From: Streptomyces murinus
Lineage (GTDB): Bacteria; Actinomycetota; Actinomycetes; Streptomycetales; Streptomycetaceae
Direction: 5' to 3'
Assembly (NCBI RefSeq): GCF_002154555.1
Contig: NZ_MUNF01000015.1
Coordinates: forward strand, 1-56,957
Length of the DNA stretch: 56,957 nucleotides
Shown piece by piece: positions 27,984-45,497 of this stretch (positions within the stretch are counted from its first letter, which is position 1; each line of letters opens with the position of its first letter). A model generated the notes under the pieces. The model made no database searches, had not been told where the DNA came from, and saw only the letters and a program-made list of their open reading frames with translations. The position numbers were made by a program, and so were the translations under genes.

Positions 27984-28151
27984 GAGTTCTCTTATCGAAA
28001 ACCGGATCGTTATTGATCGTTGTCGGCTATCACTCTTCGCCACGCTATGTAGTTTTAGCCCCAGTTTGTCCACTTCAGGGTAGGCCGAGAGCCGGAACGC
28101 CGCCCGGCGTCCCGGTCATACCCACAACAGAGCGTGATCCCTCAGGGACCT

Positions 28152-28916
28152 TCAGAACCGCCCGGCGCCCAGGTCCCTGGAGACCGCACGGGCGCAGTCA
28201 CGCACCGCGGCGATCAGCTCGGGCCGCAGCTCGCCGTCCCGGCACAGCCGCTCCACCGCACCCGTGATGCCGACGGCACCCACGGGCATCCGGCGCCGGT
28301 CGTGGACGGGCGCGGCGATCGACGCCACGCCCTCCCATGTCTCCTCCACGTCGGCCGCGTAGCCCCGCGCGCGCGTGAGGTCGAGGATCTGCTCGAACTC
28401 TGCCGCGTCGCACACCGTGCGGTCCGTGAACGCCTTGCGCTCGGTCTCCAGCGCCTCGCTGTGCGCCACCGGGTCGTACGCCGAGAGCACCTTGCCCAGC
28501 GCCGTGCAGTGCAGGGGCTGCATGGCCCCGATCTCCAGCACCTGCCGGCTGTCGTCGGGCCGGAAGACGTGGTGCACGATCAGCACGCCGTGCTGGTGCA
28601 GCACGCCCAGGTGCACGCTCTCCCCGCTGGAGCGGGCCAGATCGTCCGTCCACACCAGGGCACGCGCCCGCAGCTCGTGGACGTCCAGATAGGTGGTGCC
28701 CAGGCGCAGCAGCTCCGCGCCCAGCTGATAGCGGCCCGAGGCGTCGTCCTGCTCCACGAAGCCCTCCTGCTGGAGGGTGCGCAGAATGCCGTGCGCGGTG
28801 CCCTTGGCGAGGCCGAGCGAGGAGGCGATGTCCGACAGCCCGAGCCGTCGCTCGCCGCCCGCGAGCAGCCGCAGCATCGCGGCCGCGCGTTCGAGCGACT
28901 GGATGTTCCGTGCCAT
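28152..28916 (-). CDS. gylR: IclR-family regulator of the glycerol operon
   Basis: The 254-residue protein has an N-terminal winged helix-turn-helix (residues about 5-70, LSDIASSLGLAKGTAHGILRTLQ) and a C-terminal IclR effector domain with the ALGKVLSAYDP and RGYAADVEETWEGVASIAAPV motifs. It directly precedes glpF-glpK-glpD on the same strand, the classic gyl arrangement. There GylR represses the operon and itself until glycerol or glycerol-3-phosphate is present. Palindromes at 29001-29015 and 27928-27942 are the likely binding sites. AGGA lies 5 bases before the ATG. Confidence 0.93.
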   Translation of the reverse strand: MARNIQSLERAAAMLRLLAGGERRLGLSDIASSLGLAKGTAHGILRTLQQEGFVEQDDASGRYQLGAELLRLGTTYLDVHELRARALVWTDDLARSSGESVHLGVLHQHGVLIVHHVFRPDDSRQVLEIGAMQPLHCTALGKVLSAYDPVAHSEALETERKAFTDRTVCDAAEFEQILDLTRARGYAADVEETWEGVASIAAPVHDRRRMPVGAVGITGAVERLCRDGELRPELIAAVRDCARAVSRDLGAGRF

Positions 28917-28937
28917 CGCCGTCCTGCCTCCGTCCCC

Positions 28938-28950
28938 TTCGACTGCCGAA
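28938..28950. promoter_or_regulatory. Degenerate GylR half-site pair
   Basis: TTCGACTGCCGAA has both arms of the GylR palindrome but is two bases shorter in the centre. It lies 22 bases before the gylR start. Confidence 0.4.
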
Positions 28951-29000
28951 ACACATCTATGGGCGAAGCGCCGCCGACTTCCTGCGCTTCGCTACCACCG

Positions 29001-29015
29001 TTCGGCAATGTCGAA
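29001..29015. promoter_or_regulatory. GylR operator upstream of gylR
   Basis: TTCGGCAATGTCGAA is the same inverted repeat as at the glpF promoter and is followed by CACTA, shared with that site in inverted orientation. It sits in the 303-bp gap between divergent gylR and metH. That gap also has TAGTCT (29138-29143), a plausible metH -10 element; no cobalamin or SAM riboswitch fold is evident there. Confidence 0.65.
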
Positions 29016-29219
29016 CACTACCGGTCCATGTCGACCTCCCGCTAATGGTCGGTCGACACCTGTTACATCACATGTGGCGCCAGGGCCATCCGCGTCCGTC
29101 TCGTGGACGCCTGTGCCCATCCAAGCCCACTCCCGGTTAGTCTGGCGCCGTGCGGCCCTCCCGCCCGACGTGGGGGCACCGCATAGCCGACAGCCGTCGC
29201 ACCTTCAGGGAGCCCTTAC

Positions 29220-32200
29220 ATGGCCTCGTTGCCAACGTCCCCTATCGCCGACAGCCGGACCCGTGCGTCCGCGCTCCGAGAGGCCCTCGCCACCCGCGTG
29301 GTGGTCGCCGACGGAGCCATGGGCACCATGCTCCAGGCCCAGGAACCGACCCTGGACGACTTCCAGCAGCTCGAGGGCTGCAACGAGATCCTCAATCTCA
29401 CCCGTCCCGACATCGTCCGCTCGGTCCATGAGGCCTACTTCGCGGTCGGCGTCGACTGCGTCGAGACCAACACCTTCGGCGCCAACCACTCCGCCCTCGG
29501 CGAGTACGACATCTCCGGCCGCGTCCATGAACTCTCCGCGGCCGGCGCCCGCCTCGCCCGGGAGAGTGCCGACGCGTTCACGGCCCGCGACGGCCGCCCC
29601 CGCTGGGTCCTCGGCTCGATGGGCCCCGGCACCAAGCTGCCCACCCTCGGTCACATCGGCTACGCCACGATCCGCGACGGCTTCCAGGCGAACGCGGAGG
29701 GCCTGATCGAGGGCGGCGCGGACGCGCTGCTCGTGGAGACCACCCAGGACCTCCTCCAGACCAAGGCGTCGGTCATCGGCGCCCGCAGCGCCCTGGCCGC
29801 CCTCGGTGTGGACGTGCCGGTGCTGGTGTCGATGGCCTTCGAGACGACCGGCACGATGCTGCTGGGCTCCGAGATCGGCGCCGCGCTGACCGCGCTCGAA
29901 CCGCTCGGCATCGACATGATCGGCCTCAACTGCTCGACCGGACCTGCCGAGATGACCGAACACCTGCGTCATCTGTCCCGGCACTCCCGCGTTCCGCTGC
30001 TCTGCATGCCCAACGCCGGCCTGCCGATCCTCACCAAGGACGGCGCCCACTTCCCCCTCGACCTCCGAGGGCCTGGCGGACGCGCAGGAGACGTTCGTCC
30101 GTGAGTACGGCCTCTCGCTGGTCGGTGGCTGCTGCGGTACGACCCCCGAGCACCTGCGCCAGGTCGTGGAGCGGGTGCGGGGTCTGACCCCGCCGGCGCG
30201 TGATCCGCGTCCCGAGCCGGGTGCGGCGTCGCTGTATCAGTCGGTGCCGTTCCGGCAGGACACCTCGTATCTGGCGATCGGTGAGCGGACGAACGCGAAC
30301 GGGTCGAAGAAGTTCCGCGAGGCGATGCTGGAGGCCCGCTGGGACGACTGTGTGGAGATCGCCCGGGAACAGATCCGTGAGGGCGCGCACATGCTCGACC
30401 TGTGTGTGGACTACGTCGGCCGCGACGGCGTGGCGGACATGGCGGAGCTGGCCGGGCGCCTCGCGACGGCGTCGACGCTGCCGATCGTGCTGGACTCCAC
30501 CGAGGTGAACGTCATCGAGGCGGGTCTGGAGCGGCTGGGCGGTCGTGCGGTGATCAACTCGGTGAACTACGAGGACGGCGACGGGCCCGAGTCCCGCTTC
30601 GCGAAGGTCACCGACCTCGCCCGCCGCCATGGTGCCGCGCTGATCGCGCTGACGATCGACGAGGAGGGCCAGGCCCGTACCGTCGAGAACAAGGTCGCGA
30701 TCGCGGAGCGGCTGATCGAGGACCTGACCGGGAACTGGGGGATCCTGGAGTCGGACATCCTGATCGACACTTTGACGTTCACGATCTGCACGGGTCAGGA
30801 GGAGTCCCGCAAGGACGGTGTCGCGACGATCGAGGCGATCCGTGAGCTGAAGAAGCGGCATCCGGACGTGCAGACCACGCTGGGCCTGTCGAACATCTCC
30901 TTCGGTCTGAACCCGGCCGCACGCATCCTGCTCAACAGTGTCTTCCTGGACGAGTGCGTCAAGGCCGGTCTGGACTCGGCGATCGTGCACGCCTCGAAGA
31001 TCCTCCCCATCGCGCGTTTCAGCGAAGAAGAGGTGCGAACGGCGCTCGACCTCATCTACGACCGCCGCGCCGAGGGCTATGACCCGCTCCAGAAGCTGAT
31101 GCGGCTGTTCGAGGGGGCGACGGCGAAGTCGCTGAAGGCGGGCAAGGCCGAGGAGCTGGCGGCGCTGCCGCTGGAGGAGCGTCTCAAGCGGCGGATCATC
31201 GACGGTGAGCGCAACGGTCTGGAGGCCGACCTGGATGCCGCGCTCCGGGAGCGTCCCGCTCTGGACATCGTCAACGAGACGCTGCTGGACGGGATGAAGG
31301 TCGTCGGTGAGCTGTTCGGGTCGGGGCAGATGCAGTTGCCGTTCGTGCTCCAGTCCGCCGAGGTGATGAAGGCCGCGGTCGCTCATCTGGAGCCGCACAT
31401 GGAGAAGTCGGACGCGGACGGCAAGGGCACCATCGTGCTGGCCACCGTGCGCGGTGACGTCCATGACATCGGCAAGAACCTGGTCGACATCATCCTGTCG
31501 AACAACGGCTACAACGTGGTCAACCTGGGCATCAAGCAGCCGGTCTCCGCGATCCTGGAGGCCGCCGAGGAACACCGCGCGGACGTGATCGGGATGTCCG
31601 GGCTGCTGGTGAAGTCCACGGTGATCATGAAGGAGAACCTCCAGGAGCTCAACCAGCGCGACCTGGCCGGCACCTACCCCGTCATCCTCGGCGGCGCCGC
31701 CCTCACCCGCGCCTACGTCGAACAGGACCTCCACGAGATCTACCAGGGCGAGGTCCGCTACGCCCGCGACGCCTTCGAGGGCCTGCGCCTCATGGACGCC
31801 CTGATCGGCGTCAAACGCGGCGTGCCCGGCGCGAAGCTCCCCGAACTCAAGCAACGCCGGGTCCCCAGGAGGGCGCCGGTCCTCATGGAACCGGAAGGCG
31901 AAGGACGCTCGGACGTCGCCTCGGACAACCCGGTACCGGCCCCGCCGTTCTGGGGCACCCGCGTCATCAAGGGCATCCAGCTCAAGGAATACGCCTCCTG
32001 GCTCGACGAGACCGCTCTCTTCAAGGGGCAGTGGGGACTGACGAACGACCTGGTCGAGACCGAGGGCCGGCCCAGGCTGCGCGGACTGCTGGACCGGCTC
32101 CAGAGGGAGAACCTGCTCGAAGCGGCCGTGGTCCACGGCTACTTCCCCTGCGTCTCCAAGGGGGACGATCTGATCGTCCTGGACGAGCACGGCGGGGAAC

Positions 32201-32706
32201 TCACCCGCTTCACGTTCCCCCGGCAGAGCCGTGGCCGCCGGCTGTGCCTGGCCGACTTCTTCCGCCCGGAGGAGTCCGGCGAGCGGGATGTCGTCGGCTT
32301 CCAGGTCGTCACCGTCGGCTCCCGCATCGGCGAGGAGACGGCCAAGCTGTTCGAGGCCAACGCCTACCGCGACTACCTCGAACTCCACGGCCTGTCCGTC
32401 CAGTTGGCCGAAGCCCTCGCCGAGTACTGGCACGCACGCGTCCGCACCGAACTCGGCATCTCCGCTGCCGACCCGGCGTCCATGGCCGGCATGTTCCGTA
32501 CCGAGTACCAGGGTTGCCGCTATTCGTTCGGCTATCCGGCCTGCCCCGACCTGGAGGACCGCGGCAAGATCGCGGCCCTGCTGGAGCCGGAGCGGATCGG
32601 TGTCCACCTCTCCGAGGAGTTCCAGCTGCACCCCGAGCAGTCCACGGACGCCCTCGTCGTCCACCACCCCGAGGCGGGCTATTTCAACGCGGGGCGGCGC
32701 TCATGA
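29220..32706 (+). pseudogene. metH: Cobalamin-dependent methionine synthase, split by a one-base frameshift
   Basis: The full MetH domain order is present. The homocysteine-binding barrel has the first zinc Cys in LNCSTGPAEM and the Cys-Cys pair in GGCCGTTPEHL. Then come the folate-binding barrel (GERTNANGSKKFREAM), the cobalamin domain ([11 protein letters not shown] with the B12-ligating His) and the C-terminal activation domain. The frame is broken near 30053-30060, where one base too many (in C5, or the G at 30060) ends translation at 30104 before the Cys-Cys pair. The downstream frame runs intact for ~870 codons. It is a sequencing error or a recent inactivation. The stop overlaps the metF start as ATGA. 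Confidence 0.9.
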
Positions 32707-33560
32707 TCACCTTCTCCTTCGAGTTCTTCCCGCCCAAGACCCCCGCGGGCGAGCGCACTCTGTGGCAGACGATCCGCCGGGTCGAGTCCCTGCGCCCGGA
32801 CTTCGTCTCCGTCACCTATGGCGCGGGCGGCTCGTCCCGGGACCGTACGATCGAGGTCACCCGGCGCATCGCGGCCGAGACGACATTGCGCTCGGTCGCC
32901 CATCTCACCGCCGTGGGCCACTCGGTGGCCGAGCTGCGGCACATCATCGGCAGCTACGCGGCCGCCGGCATCCGCGACGTCCTCGCGCTGCGCGGAGATC
33001 CCCCGGGCGACCCCAGGGGCCCCTGGGTGCCGCACCCGGACGGCTTCACCCACGCCGTCCAACTGGTCGAACTGGTCCGCTCACTGGGTGACTTCCGCAT
33101 CGGTGTCGCGGCCTTCACGGAACGGCACCCGCGCTCGCCCGACTGGGACAGCGAGATCCGGCACTTCGTGGCCAAGTGCAAGGCGGGCGCGGACTACGCC
33201 ATCACGCAGATGTTCTTCCACGCGGACGACTATCTGCGGCTGCGCGACCGAGCGGCGGCGGCCGGCTGCGACATCCCGATCATCCCGGAGATCATGCCCG
33301 CCACCGACGTACGCCAGATCCGGCGGTTCGCCGAACTGAGCGGAGCCGCCTTCCCCGAGGACCTCGCCCACCGCCTGGAAGCGGCCCGCGACGACCCCGC
33401 CGCCGCCCACCGCATCGGCGTCGACCACGCCACCGCCATGGCCGACCGGCTCCTCACCGAAGGAGCGCCCGGTCTGCACTACATCACCCTCAACCGTTCG
33501 ACGGCGGCCCTGGACATCCACCGGGCCCTCCACGTTTCAAGGAGCACAAGTGTCCGCTGA
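32703..33560 (+). CDS. metF: Methylenetetrahydrofolate reductase
   Basis: The 285-residue TIM-barrel flavoprotein reduces 5,10-methylene- to 5-methyl-tetrahydrofolate, the methyl donor for MetH. Family features are the opening [13 protein letters not shown] with the catalytic Glu, [33 protein letters not shown] and [11 protein letters not shown]. The ATG overlaps the metH stop (ATGA at 32703-32706), so the two are translationally coupled. It overlaps ahcY by 11 bases. The context is a methyl-cycle operon rather than a lone housekeeping gene. Confidence 0.94.
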
Positions 33561-34980
33561 ACCCACCGACTTCAAGGTCGCCGATCTCTCGCTGGCCGAG
33601 TTCGGCCGCAAGGAGATCACCCTCGCCGAGCATGAGATGCCCGGTCTGATGGCGATCCGCAAGGAGTACGCCGAGAGCCAGCCGCTGGCCGGCGCCCGCG
33701 TCACCGGCTCTCTGCACATGACCGTGCAGACTGCCGTGCTGATCGAGACCCTGGTGGCCCTCGGCGCCCGGGTCCGTTGGGCGTCCTGCAACATCTTCTC
33801 CACCCAGGACCACGCGGCCGCCGCCATCGCCGTCGGCCCGAACGGCACGCCGGACAACCCCCAGGGCGTCCCGGTCTTCGCCTGGAAGGGCGAGACCCTG
33901 GACGAGTACTGGTGGTGCACCGAGCAGGCGCTGACCTGGCCGGACAGCCCCACCGGCGGTCCGAACATGATCCTGGACGACGGTGGCGACGCCACCCTCC
34001 TCGTCCACCAGGGCGTCGCCCACCAGAAGACCGGCCAGCTCCCGCCCGCTGACAACGACGAACTCGCCGTCGTCCGAGCCCTGCTCGAACGCAGCACCCT
34101 CGACTGGACCGCCCTGGCCGCCGACATCAGAGGTGTGACCGAGGAGACCACGACGGGTGTGCACCGTCTGTACGAGATGCAGCGCGACGGTGAACTCCTC
34201 TTCCCGGCGATCAACGTGAACGACGCGGTGACGAAGTCGAAGTTCGACAACAAGTACGGCTGCCGTCATTCCCTGGTGGACGGCATCAACCGTGCCACCG
34301 ACGTGCTGATCGGTGGCAAGACGGCCGTCGTGTGTGGTTACGGCGATGTGGGCAAGGGCTGTGCGGAGTCGTTGCGTGGTCAGGGTGCGCGGGTGATCGT
34401 GACGGAGATCGACCCGATCTGCGCGTTGCAGGCGGCGATGGACGGTTACCAGGTCACGACGCTGGACGAGGTCGTGGACAAGGCCGACATCTTCGTGACC
34501 ACGACGGGTAACAAGGACATCATCATGGCCTCGGACATGGCCAGGATGAAGCATCAGGCGATCGTGGGGAACATCGGTCATTTCGACAACGAGATCGACA
34601 TGGCGGGTCTGGCGAGGATTCCGGGGATCGTCAAGGACGAGGTGAAGCCGCAGGTCCACACGTGGACGTTCGCGGACGGCAAGGTGATCATCGTGCTGTC
34701 CGAGGGGCGCCTGTTGAACCTGGGCAATGCGACGGGGCATCCGTCGTTCGTGATGTCGAACTCGTTCGCGGACCAGACGCTGGCCCAGATCGAGCTGTTC
34801 ACCAAGCCCGATGAGTACCCGACCGGTGTGTATGTGCTGCCCAAGCACCTGGACGAGAAGGTCGCCCGTCTCCACCTGGACTCCCTCGGTGTGAAGCTGA
34901 CGACGCTGCGCCCGGAGCAGGCGGCGTACATCGGTGTCGAGGTCGAGGGCCCGTACAAGCCGGACCACTACCGCTACTGA
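33550..34980 (+). CDS. ahcY: Adenosylhomocysteinase (S-adenosylhomocysteine hydrolase)
   Basis: The 476-residue enzyme splits S-adenosylhomocysteine to homocysteine and adenosine, removing the inhibitor left by methyltransferases. Visible are [14 protein letters not shown], the catalytic region [18 protein letters not shown]-binding [27 protein letters not shown], and the C-terminal KPDHYRY that reaches the neighbouring subunit's cofactor. The GTG at 33550 follows AAGGAG inside the end of metF. From about 34130 on, codons switch from C-ending to T/G-ending, unlike the first third. Confidence 0.96.
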
Positions 34981-34983
34981 CCC

Positions 34984-35766
34984 ATGAGTCTCGCGACCCG
35001 GACGACAGTGACCGCGGGCCCCCTCGCGTATCCCGCGCGGGGTTCCGCCGGTGACTGCAATGCGCACCTGAGCCGGCAGGTGGAGCGCGGCGCACGGCAC
35101 CTGCTGATCTGCGCCGACCGGCCCACGGGCCTGGGCATGGACAGCGACGACCCGGCCGTGCGCGGTTCCGTGGGCCGCTGCGGTGGGGCGGTCGACTCGA
35201 TCGACGACATGCGCGTCCTGCTGCGCGGCCTGCCGCTGGACGAGATCACCGCGACGCTCCTCGCCGAGCCGCCCGGCGCGGCGTTGCTGGTGGTCCTGTG
35301 GGCCCTGGTGGCGCAGGAGCGGGGCGTCGGCGGGCGGTGCCGCGTCGAGGTCCTGCTCCGTCCGTCACCGGGGCCGGCGACGGACGGGTACGACGCCCCG
35401 TCGATGTCGCTGCTGACCGCGGTCTGTGCTCCGGCCGGCATTCCGGTGCGCGCGGCATCACCCGGCGAACTCCGGCAAGGGGGGCAATTCCCTCGAACGG
35501 GGTGGGACATGGAGTCGTACGGGCCGGCCCTGTCCCCCTTGGGGGTGATCGAGGTCGCCCAGGCCGAGCGTCTGGCCAAGCTGCGGGCCTGGCGCTGCGA
35601 GGACCGGCTCGACGCGGCCCTCGCCGCGCTGCGCGACGCGGCGGGGCGCCCCGCGGACATGTGGCTCCGGGCCGCGCTGGGCGACGCTTTGGCCGCGGGT
35701 GCCACCCTCGCGGAGGTGTCCGGCGTCCTTGACGCGGCCCGGCGGGCGGCCCGTGTCCGTACATGA
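34984..35766 (+). CDS. Internally shortened methylmalonyl-CoA-mutase-like protein
   Basis: This 260-residue protein follows ahcY by 3 bases. Residues ~22-110 match by eye the N-terminal half of the methylmalonyl-CoA mutase large chain: DRPTGLGMDSDDP where mutases have a DLPTQxGYDSD-type motif, GAVDSIDDMRVLL, and GLPLDEI. Residues ~195-258 match its barrel end (QAERLAKLRAWRCEDRLDAA, ATLAEVSGVLD). Roughly the middle half of a normal ~500-residue barrel, including most of the substrate channel, is absent, and no B12-binding domain is present. It cannot be a working mutase. It may be a relic or a repurposed scaffold; the frame is intact and expression is probably coupled. Confidence 0.7.
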   Translation: MSLATRTTVTAGPLAYPARGSAGDCNAHLSRQVERGARHLLICADRPTGLGMDSDDPAVRGSVGRCGGAVDSIDDMRVLLRGLPLDEITATLLAEPPGAALLVVLWALVAQERGVGGRCRVEVLLRPSPGPATDGYDAPSMSLLTAVCAPAGIPVRAASPGELRQGGQFPRTGWDMESYGPALSPLGVIEVAQAERLAKLRAWRCEDRLDAALAALRDAAGRPADMWLRAALGDALAAGATLAEVSGVLDAARRAARVRT

Positions 35767-35958
35767 GGAGGCGCGAACCCGGCGGGTGCTTCTCGGGTTT
35801 GTCACGGAGTGCCGCCCGGCGTGGCCGTGAGCGGGTCCTGCGGCTAGCGTGTGGGTCAACACGGCACGGGAAAGATCCTCCTCAAGTACCACGATCGATC
35901 CTTTGCCAATCCATTACGCTTGAGCCAAGGCTGCGCGAGGCAGCCATGGAGGAGTGAG

Positions 35959-36846
35959 ATGAGGAGCAGCAACCCGGTCTTCTCGCGACGGGGCTTCAGC
36001 CGCGACAACGGCTACGCCGGCTTCAACGCCGCACCGCAGGCCGGGTACGCAGGCGGCAACCCGTACGCGCAGAACCCCTACGCGCAAGGTGGCCAGAACC
36101 CGTACGCGCAGCAGGGCGGTTACGGACAGCCCGGCGCCCAGTACGGCGCCCCGCCGCAGGCCCCGGCCACCACCGGCCGGATGACGATGGACGACGTCGT
36201 CGTCCGCTCGGCCCTGACGCTCGGCACGGTCGCCCTGGGCGCCGTCCTGGCCTGGGCCCTGCTGCCGGTCTCGCCCACGAGCTACGGCCTGGCCGTCGGT
36301 TCCGCGCTGATCGCGTTCGTCCTGGCGATGGTGCAGAACTTCAAGCGCACCCCGGTGCCCGCGCTGATCCTCGGATACGCGGCCTTCGAGGGCGTCTTCC
36401 TCGGCGTCATCAGCGAGATGTACAACAGCCGCTGGCAGGGCGCCCCCTTCCAGGCGGTGCTCGGCACCATGGCCGTCACCGGCGCCACCCTCCTTGTCTA
36501 CAAGGCCGGCTGGATCCGCGTCACCGCGCGCTACGCCCGCATCGGCATGGCCATCGCGATGGCCTTCGTGGGCGTCATGGTGGTCAATCTGCTGCTGGTC
36601 GTGTTCGGCGTCGCCGAGGACGGCGGCCTGCGCAGCTTCGGCCCGCTCGGCGCGGTCGTCGGCATCATCGCGATCCTGCTCGGCGCGTTCTTCCTGACCC
36701 TCGACTTCAAGCAGATCCAGGACGGCATCGCCTACGGCGCGCCGCGCAACGAGTCCTGGCTCGCCGCGTTCGGTCTCACCGTCACCCTGGTGTGGATCTA
36801 CCTGGAGATGCTGCGCCTGGTGGCGATCTTCACCAACAACGACTAG
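35959..36846 (+). CDS. Bax inhibitor-1/YccA family membrane protein
   Basis: The 295-residue protein has a Gly/Tyr/Pro-rich cytoplasmic N-terminus with NPYAQ repeats (residues ~28-55), then seven hydrophobic segments from ~80 on. The family pattern is FEGVFLGVISEMYNSRW and a late DFKQIQDGIAYGAPRNESW. YccA/BI-1 proteins are integral membrane proteins linked to FtsH modulation and calcium leak in other bacteria; the role here is unknown. GGAGGAGTGAG lies before the ATG at 35959. A promoter-like TACGCT (35915-35920) lies ~40 bases upstream. Confidence 0.9.
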   Translation: MRSSNPVFSRRGFSRDNGYAGFNAAPQAGYAGGNPYAQNPYAQGGQNPYAQQGGYGQPGAQYGAPPQAPATTGRMTMDDVVVRSALTLGTVALGAVLAWALLPVSPTSYGLAVGSALIAFVLAMVQNFKRTPVPALILGYAAFEGVFLGVISEMYNSRWQGAPFQAVLGTMAVTGATLLVYKAGWIRVTARYARIGMAIAMAFVGVMVVNLLLVVFGVAEDGGLRSFGPLGAVVGIIAILLGAFFLTLDFKQIQDGIAYGAPRNESWLAAFGLTVTLVWIYLEMLRLVAIFTNND

Positions 36847-36871
36847 CGCGCGTACGGCACGCAGTTCAGGC

Positions 36872-36902
36872 AAGGGCCCCGGGCTTCCCGTCCGGGGCCC
36901 TT
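36872..36902. terminator. Bidirectional terminator
   Basis: AAGGGCCCCGG (36872-36882) pairs perfectly with CCGGGGCCCTT (36892-36902) between the convergent BI-1 and DUF4287 genes. Confidence 0.85.
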
Positions 36903-36922
36903 CGCCGTCCGGGGGCGGTGTC

Positions 36923-37153
36923 TCAGAGCAGCTTGCGGGCCGCCCTGCGCAGGTCGTACTCGTGCACGATGGCCTTGGCGTGGCCGTACGCCAGGTCGTA
37001 CTCGTGCCTCAGCCAGGTGACCTTCTCCTCGAAGCGGAACAGGGCGGGGCCTTCTTCGACGGTCCGCAGCCAGTCGGAGACCTCACGACCGGTGCAGTGC
37101 GGGATGCGGGCGAGCATGTTGCGATGGGTCTCCTCGGAGAAGACTTGGGACAT
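36923..37153 (-). CDS. DUF4287 domain small protein
   Basis: The 76-residue helical protein has the DUF4287 pattern: an N-terminal helix with MLARIPHCTGREVSDWL, then WLRHEYDLAYGHAKAIVHEYDL, where the GHA(K/M)AI signature is plain. Function unknown. The ATG is at 37151-37153 with a GGAGGTGCCG-like site upstream. It is convergent with the BI-1 gene and divergent from the small gene at 37253. Confidence 0.82.
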   Translation of the reverse strand: MSQVFSEETHRNMLARIPHCTGREVSDWLRTVEEGPALFRFEEKVTWLRHEYDLAYGHAKAIVHEYDLRRAARKLL

Positions 37154-43714: not shown

Positions 43715-43903
43715 TCAGGCGCGCTGGTCCGAGGCGAACTGGACGAACGCGGACCAGGAGTTGGCGCGGAAGGTGAGGGTGCCGGCGTCGTGGTCCTTGG
43801 TGTCGCGTACGGGGACGGTGCCGGGGATGTTGGTGGCGACCTCGATGCACTGGCCGCCGTTGTTGCTGTACGAGGACGTGAACCAGCGGGGGAAGTCCGT
43901 CAC
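43715..43903 (-). CDS. DUF397 protein 1 (distal)
   Basis: The 62-residue protein is a complete DUF397 domain: RWFTSSYSNNGGQCIEVA, a PVRDTKDHDAG turn and a SWSAFVQFA ending. DUF397 proteins pair with XRE/DUF5753 regulators in streptomycetes; in Scr-type pairs they behave as the toxin-like or effector partner. The start GTG overlaps the upstream copy's TGA (GTGA at 43900-43903). Nearly identical in its first two thirds to copy 4, but with a different C-terminus (ASDQRA). Confidence 0.85.
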   Translation of the reverse strand: MTDFPRWFTSSYSNNGGQCIEVATNIPGTVPVRDTKDHDAGTLTFRANSWSAFVQFASDQRA

Positions 43904-44094
43904 AGGGTGTCCTTCTGGGAGGCGAACTGGACGAACGCGGACCAGGGGTCCGTGCTGAAGGTGAGGGTTCCGGCGTCGCGGTCCTTGGTGTCGCGTACGG
44001 GCACGATGCCGGGGACGTTGGCGGCGACCTCCACGCAGGCGCCGCCGTTGCTGCTGTACGAGGACGTGAACCACTGCGGGTTGTCGGTCGTCAC
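43900..44094 (-). CDS. DUF397 protein 2
   Basis: 64 residues, same domain (WFTSSYSSNGGACVEVA, PVRDTKDRDAG, PWSAFVQFASQKDTL). A GTGA overlap joins it to both neighbours. Its C-terminal QKDTL is shared with copy 5, suggesting that a two-gene block was duplicated. Confidence 0.85.
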   Translation of the reverse strand: MTTDNPQWFTSSYSSNGGACVEVAANVPGIVPVRDTKDRDAGTLTFSTDPWSAFVQFASQKDTL

Positions 44095-44285
44095 GAGGTG
44101 GCCTTTCGAGAGGCGAACTGGACGAACGCGGACCAGGAGTCGGTACGGAAGGTGAGGATTCCGGCGTCGTGGTCCTTGGTATCGCGGACGGGGACGGTGC
44201 CGGGGATGTTGGTGGCGACCTCGACGCAGTTGCCGCCGTTGCTGCTGTGCGAGGACGTGCACCAGCGCGGGTTGTCGGTCGTCAC
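44091..44285 (-). CDS. DUF397 protein 3
   Basis: 64 residues. It differs from its siblings by Cys and His substitutions in the first motif (RWCTSSHSSNGGNCVEVA) and by Ile in AGILTF. The ending RKATS is shared with copy 4. GTG start with a 4-base overlap on both sides. Confidence 0.85.
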   Translation of the reverse strand: MTTDNPRWCTSSHSSNGGNCVEVATNIPGTVPVRDTKDHDAGILTFRTDSWSAFVQFASRKATS

Positions 44286-44473
44286 GAGGTGGCCTTTCGA
44301 GAGGCGAACTGGACGAAGGCGGACCAGGAGTTGGCGCGGAAGGTGAGGGTGCCGGCGTCGTGGTCCTTGGTGTCGCGGACGGGGACGGTGCCGGGGATGT
44401 TGGTGGCGACCTCGACGCAGTTGCCGCCGTTGTTGCTGTAGGAGGACGTGTGCCAGCGGGGGAAGTCCGTCAC
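44282..44473 (-). CDS. DUF397 protein 4
   Basis: 63 residues (RWHTSSYSNNGGNCVEVA, PVRDTKDHDAG, SWSAFVQFASRKATS). It starts VTDFPRW like copy 1. GTGA overlaps join it to copies 3 and 5. Confidence 0.85.
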   Translation of the reverse strand: MTDFPRWHTSSYSNNGGNCVEVATNIPGTVPVRDTKDHDAGTLTFRANSWSAFVQFASRKATS

Positions 44474-44664
44474 AGGGTGTCCTTCTGGGTGGCGAGCTGG
44501 ACGAAGGCGGACCAGGAGTTGGTGCTGAAGGTGAGGGTGCCGGCGTCGCGGTCCTTGGTGTCGCGTACGGGCACGGTGCCGGGGACGTTGGTGGCGACTT
44601 CCACGCAGTCGCCGCCGTTGTTGCTGTAGGAGGAGGTGAACCAGCGGGGGGAGTCGGTCGTCAC
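44470..44664 (-). CDS. DUF397 protein 5 (regulator-proximal)
   Basis: 64 residues (RWFTSSYSNNGGDCVEVA, PVRDTKDRDAG, SWSAFVQLATQKDTL). Its GTG overlaps the XRE regulator's stop (44661-44664), so it is the copy directly coupled to the regulator and the likely original partner. Confidence 0.85.
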   Translation of the reverse strand: MTTDSPRWFTSSYSNNGGDCVEVATNVPGTVPVRDTKDRDAGTLTFSTNSWSAFVQLATQKDTL

Positions 44665-45497
44665 GGGGTGCCCTTTCGTACCTCATGGATCATGGCCACC
44701 GATGCCGCCTGGGGCAGAGCTTCGGCCTGCAACTGATGGTAGGCCGACAACAGGGGCAGTACGGCTGCCGTATCGCGTTCCACATGCCCTCGCATCTGGG
44801 ATTCCGCGTACGCGACGACTGACAGGTCCGACATCGTCAGCAAGTTCATGGGAAAGTCGAACGTGCGGCGCTCCCCTATGCCGTATGGGGCGATCTGGAG
44901 GACGGTGTTCGGCAGTTCGGCGAACTGAGTCAGCCGATCAAGCTGGGCGTTCATGACTTTGGGGCCGCCGATCGGTCTGCGAACGCAGCTCTCATCCATC
45001 ACCACCAGCATCATGGGCAGGCGGGGCCGCTCCAGGGCGGCTTGCCGCTCCGCCAGGAACGCGACGCGCTCATCTGCCTGTTCGCGCGTGATGGCGCCTC
45101 GTCGCGCTGCGCTGTCTGCCAGCACCCGGGCGTACTCCGGTGTCTGTAGCAACCCAGGGATGATCCCGATCTGAAACAGCCGGATCTCCGCGGCCCGCCC
45201 CTCGTACTTGATGTACTCCGGGAAGCCCTCCAGCAGGTTGCCGTGCTTGATCTCGCGGTACTCGCGTTCGAACGACTCCGCCGTGTCCGCGATGCCGAAC
45301 GCCCTGTCAGCACTACGCGAAAAGCGAAGGGTTGGAGGCTTCCGACCAGTTTCGATGGCCGAGATATGCACGCTGGAATATTCCGTGAGGGTGGCCAGAT
45401 CCTCCTGGGTCCAGCCGCGTGTCTCGCGCTTGCTGCGCATACGCGCCCCGAAGGCCGCCTGAGGCGAGGCGTCGGGGTTCAACTCCTTGCGGTTCAA
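44661..45497 (-). CDS. XRE-family regulator with DUF5753 domain (Scr1-type antitoxin-like)
   Basis: The 278-residue protein has an N-terminal XRE helix-turn-helix (residues ~12-70: RETRGWTQEDLATLTEYSS, then HISAIETGRKPPTL) and a DUF5753 domain (~90-270: IPGLLQTPEYARVL, RQAALERP, LPNTVLQIAPYG). This is the Scr1-type 'TA system antitoxin-like' regulator that pairs with DUF397 partners. The start is set at the TTG at 45495-45497, which gives the usual family N-terminus (NRKELNPDASPQAAFGAR); GGAAGGA lies 13 bases upstream. An earlier non-ATG start is possible. It heads a six-gene chain with 4-base overlaps throughout. Confidence 0.87.
   Translation of the reverse strand: MNRKELNPDASPQAAFGARMRSKRETRGWTQEDLATLTEYSSVHISAIETGRKPPTLRFSRSADRAFGIADTAESFEREYREIKHGNLLEGFPEYIKYEGRAAEIRLFQIGIIPGLLQTPEYARVLADSAARRGAITREQADERVAFLAERQAALERPRLPMMLVVMDESCVRRPIGGPKVMNAQLDRLTQFAELPNTVLQIAPYGIGERRTFDFPMNLLTMSDLSVVAYAESQMRGHVERDTAAVLPLLSAYHQLQAEALPQAASVAMIHEVRKGTP

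Follow-up and report, generated by a model that had tools for sequence, protein, structure and literature searches.

Next to ahcY in Streptomyces murinus lies a short open reading frame (ORF) that, judged from its sequence, is a descendant of a vitamin B12-type mutase minus the catalytic half. The balance tips slightly toward regarding its product as a pseudoenzyme, that is, a shrunken, catalytically dead descendant of a stand-alone IcmA-like large subunit, which probably serves acyl-CoA mutase metabolism as a binding protein; the strongest competing reading is that mutase genes have decayed repeatedly. The ORF lies in a 56,957-nucleotide stretch of contig NZ_MUNF01000015.1 (the window), and it belongs to a set of similarly shortened proteins, here called stubs. 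To our knowledge, half TIM barrels seldom survive as proteins, and rarely can the disappearance of a catalytic centre be followed step by step through intermediate forms in orthologous clusters. The stub set makes testable what remains when an enzyme turns into a non-enzyme, and it may lead to a protein that regulates how precursors are supplied in Streptomyces clusters. The portions of the open-licence literature that were searched contain no description of such stubs.

The open reading frame

The preliminary description of this DNA placed an open frame 3 nt behind ahcY, and its coordinates and adjacency are correct: ahcY ends at 34980, the ATG lies at 34984, and the stop codon ends at 35766 (Table 1). 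The start codon is insecure, because no clear ribosome site is seen upstream of this ATG and the gene caller chose the GTG at 35008 instead. A long frame by itself says little here, because open frames that reach 260 codons (with the stop and open ends counted) number 76 in the window (71% GC), against 28 called genes whose products reach 260 aa. The coding score per codon is 0.26 in the frame of the ORF and between -0.97 and -0.10 in the other five frames; it is the fourth lowest among 44 genes of at least 100 aa outside the training set (median 0.47). Promoter and terminator scans across 34900-36000 found nothing. The source assembly comprises 7.95 Mb in 1088 contigs.

Table 1. Positions of the short mutase-like ORF, its parts, and the adjoining genes
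Feature	Position	Strand	Remarks
metH	29298..32706	+	broken near 30090 by a frameshift that leaves open frames 29298-30104 and 30166-32706
metF	32703..33560	+	second match, 63% identity, elsewhere in the genome
ahcY (adenosylhomocysteinase)	33550..34980	+	only copy found in the assembly
short mutase-like ORF	34984..35766	+	260 aa; alternative start GTG 35008 gives 252 aa
N-terminal block, first half of substrate barrel	35041..35325	+	residues 20-114; PF01642 56-149; 1REQ 87-258
C-terminal helical block	35542..35760	+	residues 187-259; 1REQ 484-562; most constrained part in relatives
Trp203 in RAWR	35590..35592	+	in 14/15 complete stubs; LRAWR in 3/75 intact mutases and G306
downstream gene	35959..36846	+	separated from metH by 1.4-4.3 Mb in six other genomes

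Mutase ancestry and the missing half

The sole Pfam family found in the product is MM_CoA_mutase (PF01642, 4.3e-22), which matches in two stretches; at 78.8 bits versus a curated cut-off of 22.1, the match is not a chance one and indicates membership of the superfamily by descent. With TIGR00641, which represents the functional acyl-CoA mutase large subunit, the product scores 87.1 bits, below the NCBIfam cut-off of 303.8. A profile made from six short relatives aligns to residues 87-258 and 484-562 of 1REQ and skips 259-483. Thus, of the initial claim that the motif block and the end of the barrel flank a missing centre, the two flanks are indeed recognisable, but the loss is larger, comprising the whole second half of the barrel: the window protein lacks a complete barrel with catalytic residues, the equivalent of 1REQ 259-483 is absent, and the predicted model has four strands. 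The B12 domain, also said to be missing, is absent; however, its absence is ancestral and not part of the truncation, because the closest intact relatives are themselves large subunits of about 526 aa that stand alone. With both blocks in one open frame and the common centre missing, the window ORF belongs to the stub set. It lacks the Arg of PS(L/M)R, which we take to be the counterpart of MMUT Arg228, so that a retained chaperone interface is a guess.

The AlphaFold model of the window protein was built on an alignment of 40 rows (the window protein, four other stubs, and 35 longer mutase rows, one of them cut by a contig end) and has a pLDDT of 79 and a pTM of 0.79. It contains four strands with helices, followed by four C-terminal helices, with low confidence at residues 1-12 and 167-186. 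When the model is compared with known structures by VIA-align, mutases score Z 18-23; for 1REQ the score is 22.5, with 3.4 Å over 240 residues (74-557) that take in both blocks, and the next hit after the mutases is glutamate mutase at 6.6. In Foldseek the top 34 rows are mutases, with long superpositions at an rmsd of 12-16 Å and a TM of about 0.6. Another stub (L001), folded without an alignment, gave a pLDDT of 36 and no usable model. Because most of the alignment rows are intact mutases, the model shows compatibility with the mutase fold, not autonomous folding of the stub. In the human mutase, as described in PMC10356863, a belt of about 100 residues encircles the active site and connects it with the B12 domain; the C block of the stubs would correspond to this belt.

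Relatives lacking the same centre

Relatives were sought in a contig scan and in 392 Streptomyces and 394 Streptomycetaceae genomes (two overlapping draws, best matches only), which yielded both intact mutases and proteins that match the two blocks without the centre. At least 14 complete relatives of 235-454 aa lack the same centre, and a further one (G059) has a stub-like N block ended by a contig end. The short homologues that the preliminary description wished to see sought elsewhere therefore exist, and a simple deletion pseudogene with no short homologues is not what was found. The lengths, which hinge on predicted starts, are 260 aa (window), 262 (L001), 250 (G146), 282 (G305), 277 (G208), 256 (G227), 256 (G453), 235 (G685), 243 (G570), 358 (L024), 419 (L043), 444 (L019), 454 (G072), 398 (G039), and 441 (G133). 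Six matches with short frames were read individually: besides G133 (a stub) and G059 (the cut stub), these were G306, which is of intact type but contains a gap of N, and three intact-type genes that contig ends cut short (G763, G426, and G807). The single TGA in G685 is its own stop codon. The G208 stub, found at two places near both chromosome ends, is counted once; its copies (L115) sit about 25 kb inside either end, the arrangement that terminal inverted repeats would produce. (It should be noted that the rates, simulation, and neighbour counts given below cover 14 stubs including the window gene, with G133 and G059 outside.)

So far, stubs have been found in Streptomycetaceae only. In a class draw of 148 genomes there was no other stub among the best matches listed besides the window's own, and 381 plasmid records held no place covering 80% of the window protein. 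A second genus draw, centred on G009 and containing nearly the same genomes, gave no closer relative of the window gene. The 419-aa stub of S. fuscichromogenes (L043:4923-6182) differs from the other members in its third-position GC (0.70) and its negative coding score.

The stand-alone Streptomyces large subunits (TIGR00641 type, about 526 aa; L002, L104, and L008) share with the stubs both blocks, RAWR, and the lack of an in-chain B12 domain, but keep SGYH, HTQT, and SLHTN, which the stubs have lost. FHTQT and SLHTN are gone from all 14 aligned stubs, and SGYH is altered in every one of the seven that retain this stretch (L019, G072, G039, L024, L043, G146, and G133), the forms being SGHR, SGHL, CGHE, SGRL, SGCE, SGRL, and SGHR. 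The His of SGYH is presumably His244 of the P. shermanii enzyme, which fits the H244A entry 1E1C. All three motifs are retained in intact relatives. In L002 and L104 a gene of 133 or 135 aa with a GLDGHDRG motif follows, which by this motif is read as the B12 subunit; L008 is without such a neighbour. A literal search for GLDGHDR, a narrow test, found no gene in the stretches around the 15 stubs.

Erosion in orthologous clusters

Five loci have in common the order P450, P450, ferredoxin, stub, with stubs of 444, 454, 358, 250, and 243 aa (Pfam check of the locus genes: L118). In these orthologous clusters the stub has been eroded in frame and step by step, from 454 to 243 aa. Two further loci, L117 (stub of 235 aa) and L145 (398 aa), have a metallophosphatase-like and then a phosphopantetheinyl-transferase-like gene nearby (Pfam: L145 only); they too are likely orthologous, which is less sure because two extra genes intervene in L117. 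A similar 345-aa gene adjoins both the L001 stub (L001:7128-8165) and, at L002:7368-8405, the intact L002 mutase and the B12-subunit gene that accompanies it; this hints that the L001 stub could be what erosion has left of an enzyme at its original site.

Descent of the stubs

FastTree, applied to 89 proteins, places the stubs next to the Streptomyces stand-alone large subunits, the nearest being L008, L002, and L104. In a more careful tree, with 14 stubs and 24 intact proteins, a single branch (96/89) separates off all the stubs, as it does in 97% of 200 bootstrap trees, although its bootstrap had not settled and L002 and L104 were absent from it. When these two and G133 were added (15 stubs and 26 intact proteins), two changes were needed, a single change occurred in just 6% of bootstrap trees, and L001, G208, G453, and G227 grouped with L002 and L104. 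A single stub clade, supported with the 24 intact rows, was thus lost once the nearest intact relatives were included, which lowers the odds for a pseudoenzyme and raises those for decay: since the stubs are not one clade in the company of these relatives, mutase genes may have decayed repeatedly and independently. The stubs derive from one sub-lineage of intact enzymes, in which truncation may have occurred a single time or repeatedly. A DNA tree left the set unresolved, with many inner supports of 28-62 and the outgroup beside the G146-G570-L024 lineage.

A recent simple deletion in one of the genome's own mutase genes has six other mutase matches in this genome to draw upon, but it is scarcely credible, given that the window gene stands apart from the genome's own copies L046, L047, and L049 in the trees and that its relatives lack the same part. 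In both protein trees the longest branch, with 2.6-2.7 changes per column, is that of the window gene. It keeps all 40 columns that are invariant across the 14 stubs, and where the stubs and the Streptomyces intact consensus differ (40 columns), it agrees with the stubs at 15 positions and with the intact form at 5.

The only column to pass a group-separation test is the Trp of RAWR (13/14 stubs vs 1/24 intact proteins). As a stub signature it was dropped, because LRAWR is present in 3/75 intact proteins and in G306; the intact mutases that bear LRAWR are the nearest intact relatives of the stubs. By its distribution, this Trp marks the lineage and is not an invention of the stubs.

Selection and open frames

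Rates were estimated by the modified Nei-Gojobori method (kappa 2), with a bootstrap over codons, for the 11 closest or orthologous pairs out of 91, which share sequences. In the C-terminal block omega is 0.06-0.47, with the upper bound below 1 in 11/11 of these non-independent pairs; this block of the relatives is under purifying selection. For the N block omega is 0.28-1.04, with an interval that spans 1 in 5/11 pairs, and the remainder gives 0.49-1.06. In the truncated orthologues L024, G146, and G570 the values are 0.91-1.04 for the N block, which looks neutral, 0.29-0.47 for the C block, and 0.74-0.80 for the whole gene. Control values are 0.11-0.23 for P450 and 0.17-0.68 for ferredoxin (63 codons) in 10 pairs, and 0.17-0.20 and 0.17-0.26, respectively, within this trio; an unweighted count of rates gives the same picture. 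The dN/dS check called for in the preliminary description is therefore divided: the C block of the relatives is clearly constrained, but the whole gene is near neutral in the three truncated orthologues. As to the marks of a pseudogene, the window frame is intact, and among the truncated orthologues it is the N block and the rest that are near neutral. For the window gene against its relatives, whole-gene dN/dS is uninformative, with dS at 0.7-1.4 and no close relative found.

The frame is open in 14/14 stubs, a count that may have missed copies frameshifted between the blocks. Neutral drift, simulated on the DNA tree (start L047, set treated as one clade, 5.13 substitutions per site over the whole family), left a mean of 1.7 and a maximum of 6 of the 14 frames open in 200 runs. 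Taken by itself, the window gene would still be open under neutrality with a chance of 0.085 by the tree simulation or 0.02-0.04 by a separate estimate.

These results bear on a slow-decay relic, to which we give an appreciable, though less than even, probability. In such a history cluster mutase genes would lose function repeatedly, and the window copy would drift, staying open partly by luck in GC-rich DNA. The long branch, the low coding score, the abundance of long open frames in the window, a neutral open-frame chance of 0.02-0.09, the near-neutral whole-gene omega of the truncated orthologues, the possibility of several truncation origins, and the position of the gene at a rearrangement junction (see below) are all in keeping with it; the open frames throughout the set, the constrained C block of the relatives, and the invariant and stub-like columns of the window gene argue against it. 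Counting against a pseudoenzyme are the divergence of the window copy, the greatest in the set, its possible decay, its missing Arg, and its low coding score, as well as the near-neutral N block of the truncated orthologues, the occurrence of the Trp mark in intact mutases, the predominance of intact mutases in the alignment behind the model, the large rmsd in Foldseek, and the differing neighbours of the stubs.

A possible binding role

The data establish that the stubs descend from a mutase, have lost its catalytic centre, and have open frames throughout the set, and that the C-terminal helices of the relatives are under purifying selection. According to the pseudoenzyme reading, in-frame deletions have eroded the catalytic second barrel half of a stand-alone acyl-CoA mutase, once or several times. 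The product would fold as a half barrel joined to the helices that connect barrel and B12 domain in complete mutases, and it would act as a binding protein. Most likely it would dock on a mutase large subunit, a separate B12 subunit, a G-protein chaperone, or a carrier protein, and docking could tune precursor supply or complex assembly. In the window strain the stub is the last gene behind a SAM-regeneration-type metF-ahcY pair. A binding role is the simplest account of the open frames together with the constraint on the C helices. Of the retained non-catalytic role proposed at the outset, then, these two supports stand, but the link to AhcY, MetF, or MetH finds no support. A wider and more doubtful idea, which we regard as possible but rather unlikely, is that enzymes are here turning into non-enzymes, perhaps several times in parallel: stand-alone mutases of one Streptomyces lineage would be shedding the catalytic half through in-frame deletions (from 454 down to 235 aa), with the C helices selected as an adaptor or regulator of mutase complexes or of carrier-protein complexes.

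A mutase-derived subunit without catalysis is described, in PMC10481361, for a bacterial methylmalonyl-CoA mutase. The likeness is that of a mutase-derived, non-catalytic chain; however, that subunit has substrate and cobalamin domains and an active mate, whereas the stub is a half barrel with no known partner.

Gene neighbourhood

The gene was initially placed in an operon with metH. Both metH and metF do lie upstream on the same strand, but metH is frameshifted; this copy, split at 30040-30166, is the one strong metH match in the window genome, and the split is either a sequencing error or a real break. A role in the SAM cycle as a partner of AhcY, MetF, or MetH, without catalytic activity, would fit the ATG lying directly behind ahcY, as well as a relative (L114) that overlaps a PfkB adenosine-kinase-like gene by 4 nt. 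This explanation is improbable: in the stretches read, 0/14 complete relatives lie beside ahcY, metF, or metH (the L114 contig ends just upstream), and 0/7 other loci with a second ahcY copy carry a stub. From this comparison, the adjacency of the window gene to ahcY and metF is probably incidental. The furaquinocin cluster has a SAM-regeneration run metK-adoK-metH-metF-ahcY, according to PMC9686526; the metF-ahcY order is the same at the window, but the stub is absent from the second-ahcY loci. Five of these seven (L121, L122, L123, L125, and L127) have metK-, adoK-, and metH-like genes upstream (Pfam: L121 only); the window genome has no close cassette-type adoK, the best match being 70%. 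In nine other genomes the best ahcY adjoins a protein of 204-209 aa.

The other stubs lie near genes for P450, ferredoxin, 2-oxoacid dehydrogenase, carboxyl transferase, or pyruvate-ferredoxin-type oxidoreductase, and also near thioesterase, acyl-CoA dehydrogenase, AfsA, PfkB, or methyltransferase genes; in our reading of these neighbours, they are mostly genes typical of natural-product clusters. The start is at most 7 nt from, or overlaps, the upstream stop in 6/14 stubs (window, L024, L118, L114, L116, and L145). That the frame is kept open solely since downstream genes need translation through it might apply to two members, which lie 13 and 25 nt ahead of a reductase gene. It is not the general reason, because the next gene is convergent in 9/14 stubs and close on the same strand in just 2/14; with a 192-bp gap in the window, we consider it very improbable for the ORF.

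Downstream of this gap is what we take to be a gene for a Bax-inhibitor-like membrane protein. In six other genomes a non-cassette metH and the Bax-like gene are 1.4-4.3 Mb apart (context checked in G009, G013, and G031); in the window, 28000-37000 joins the metH side to the Bax-like side via metH-metF-ahcY-stub. The first 900 bases around the metH start are like native copies. The junction is either a rearrangement or an assembly join (chimera). Farther along the window, at 43715-44664, five small tandem ORFs of 62-64 aa form one family, presumably DUF397-like, behind a helix-turn-helix-like regulator at 44661-45497.
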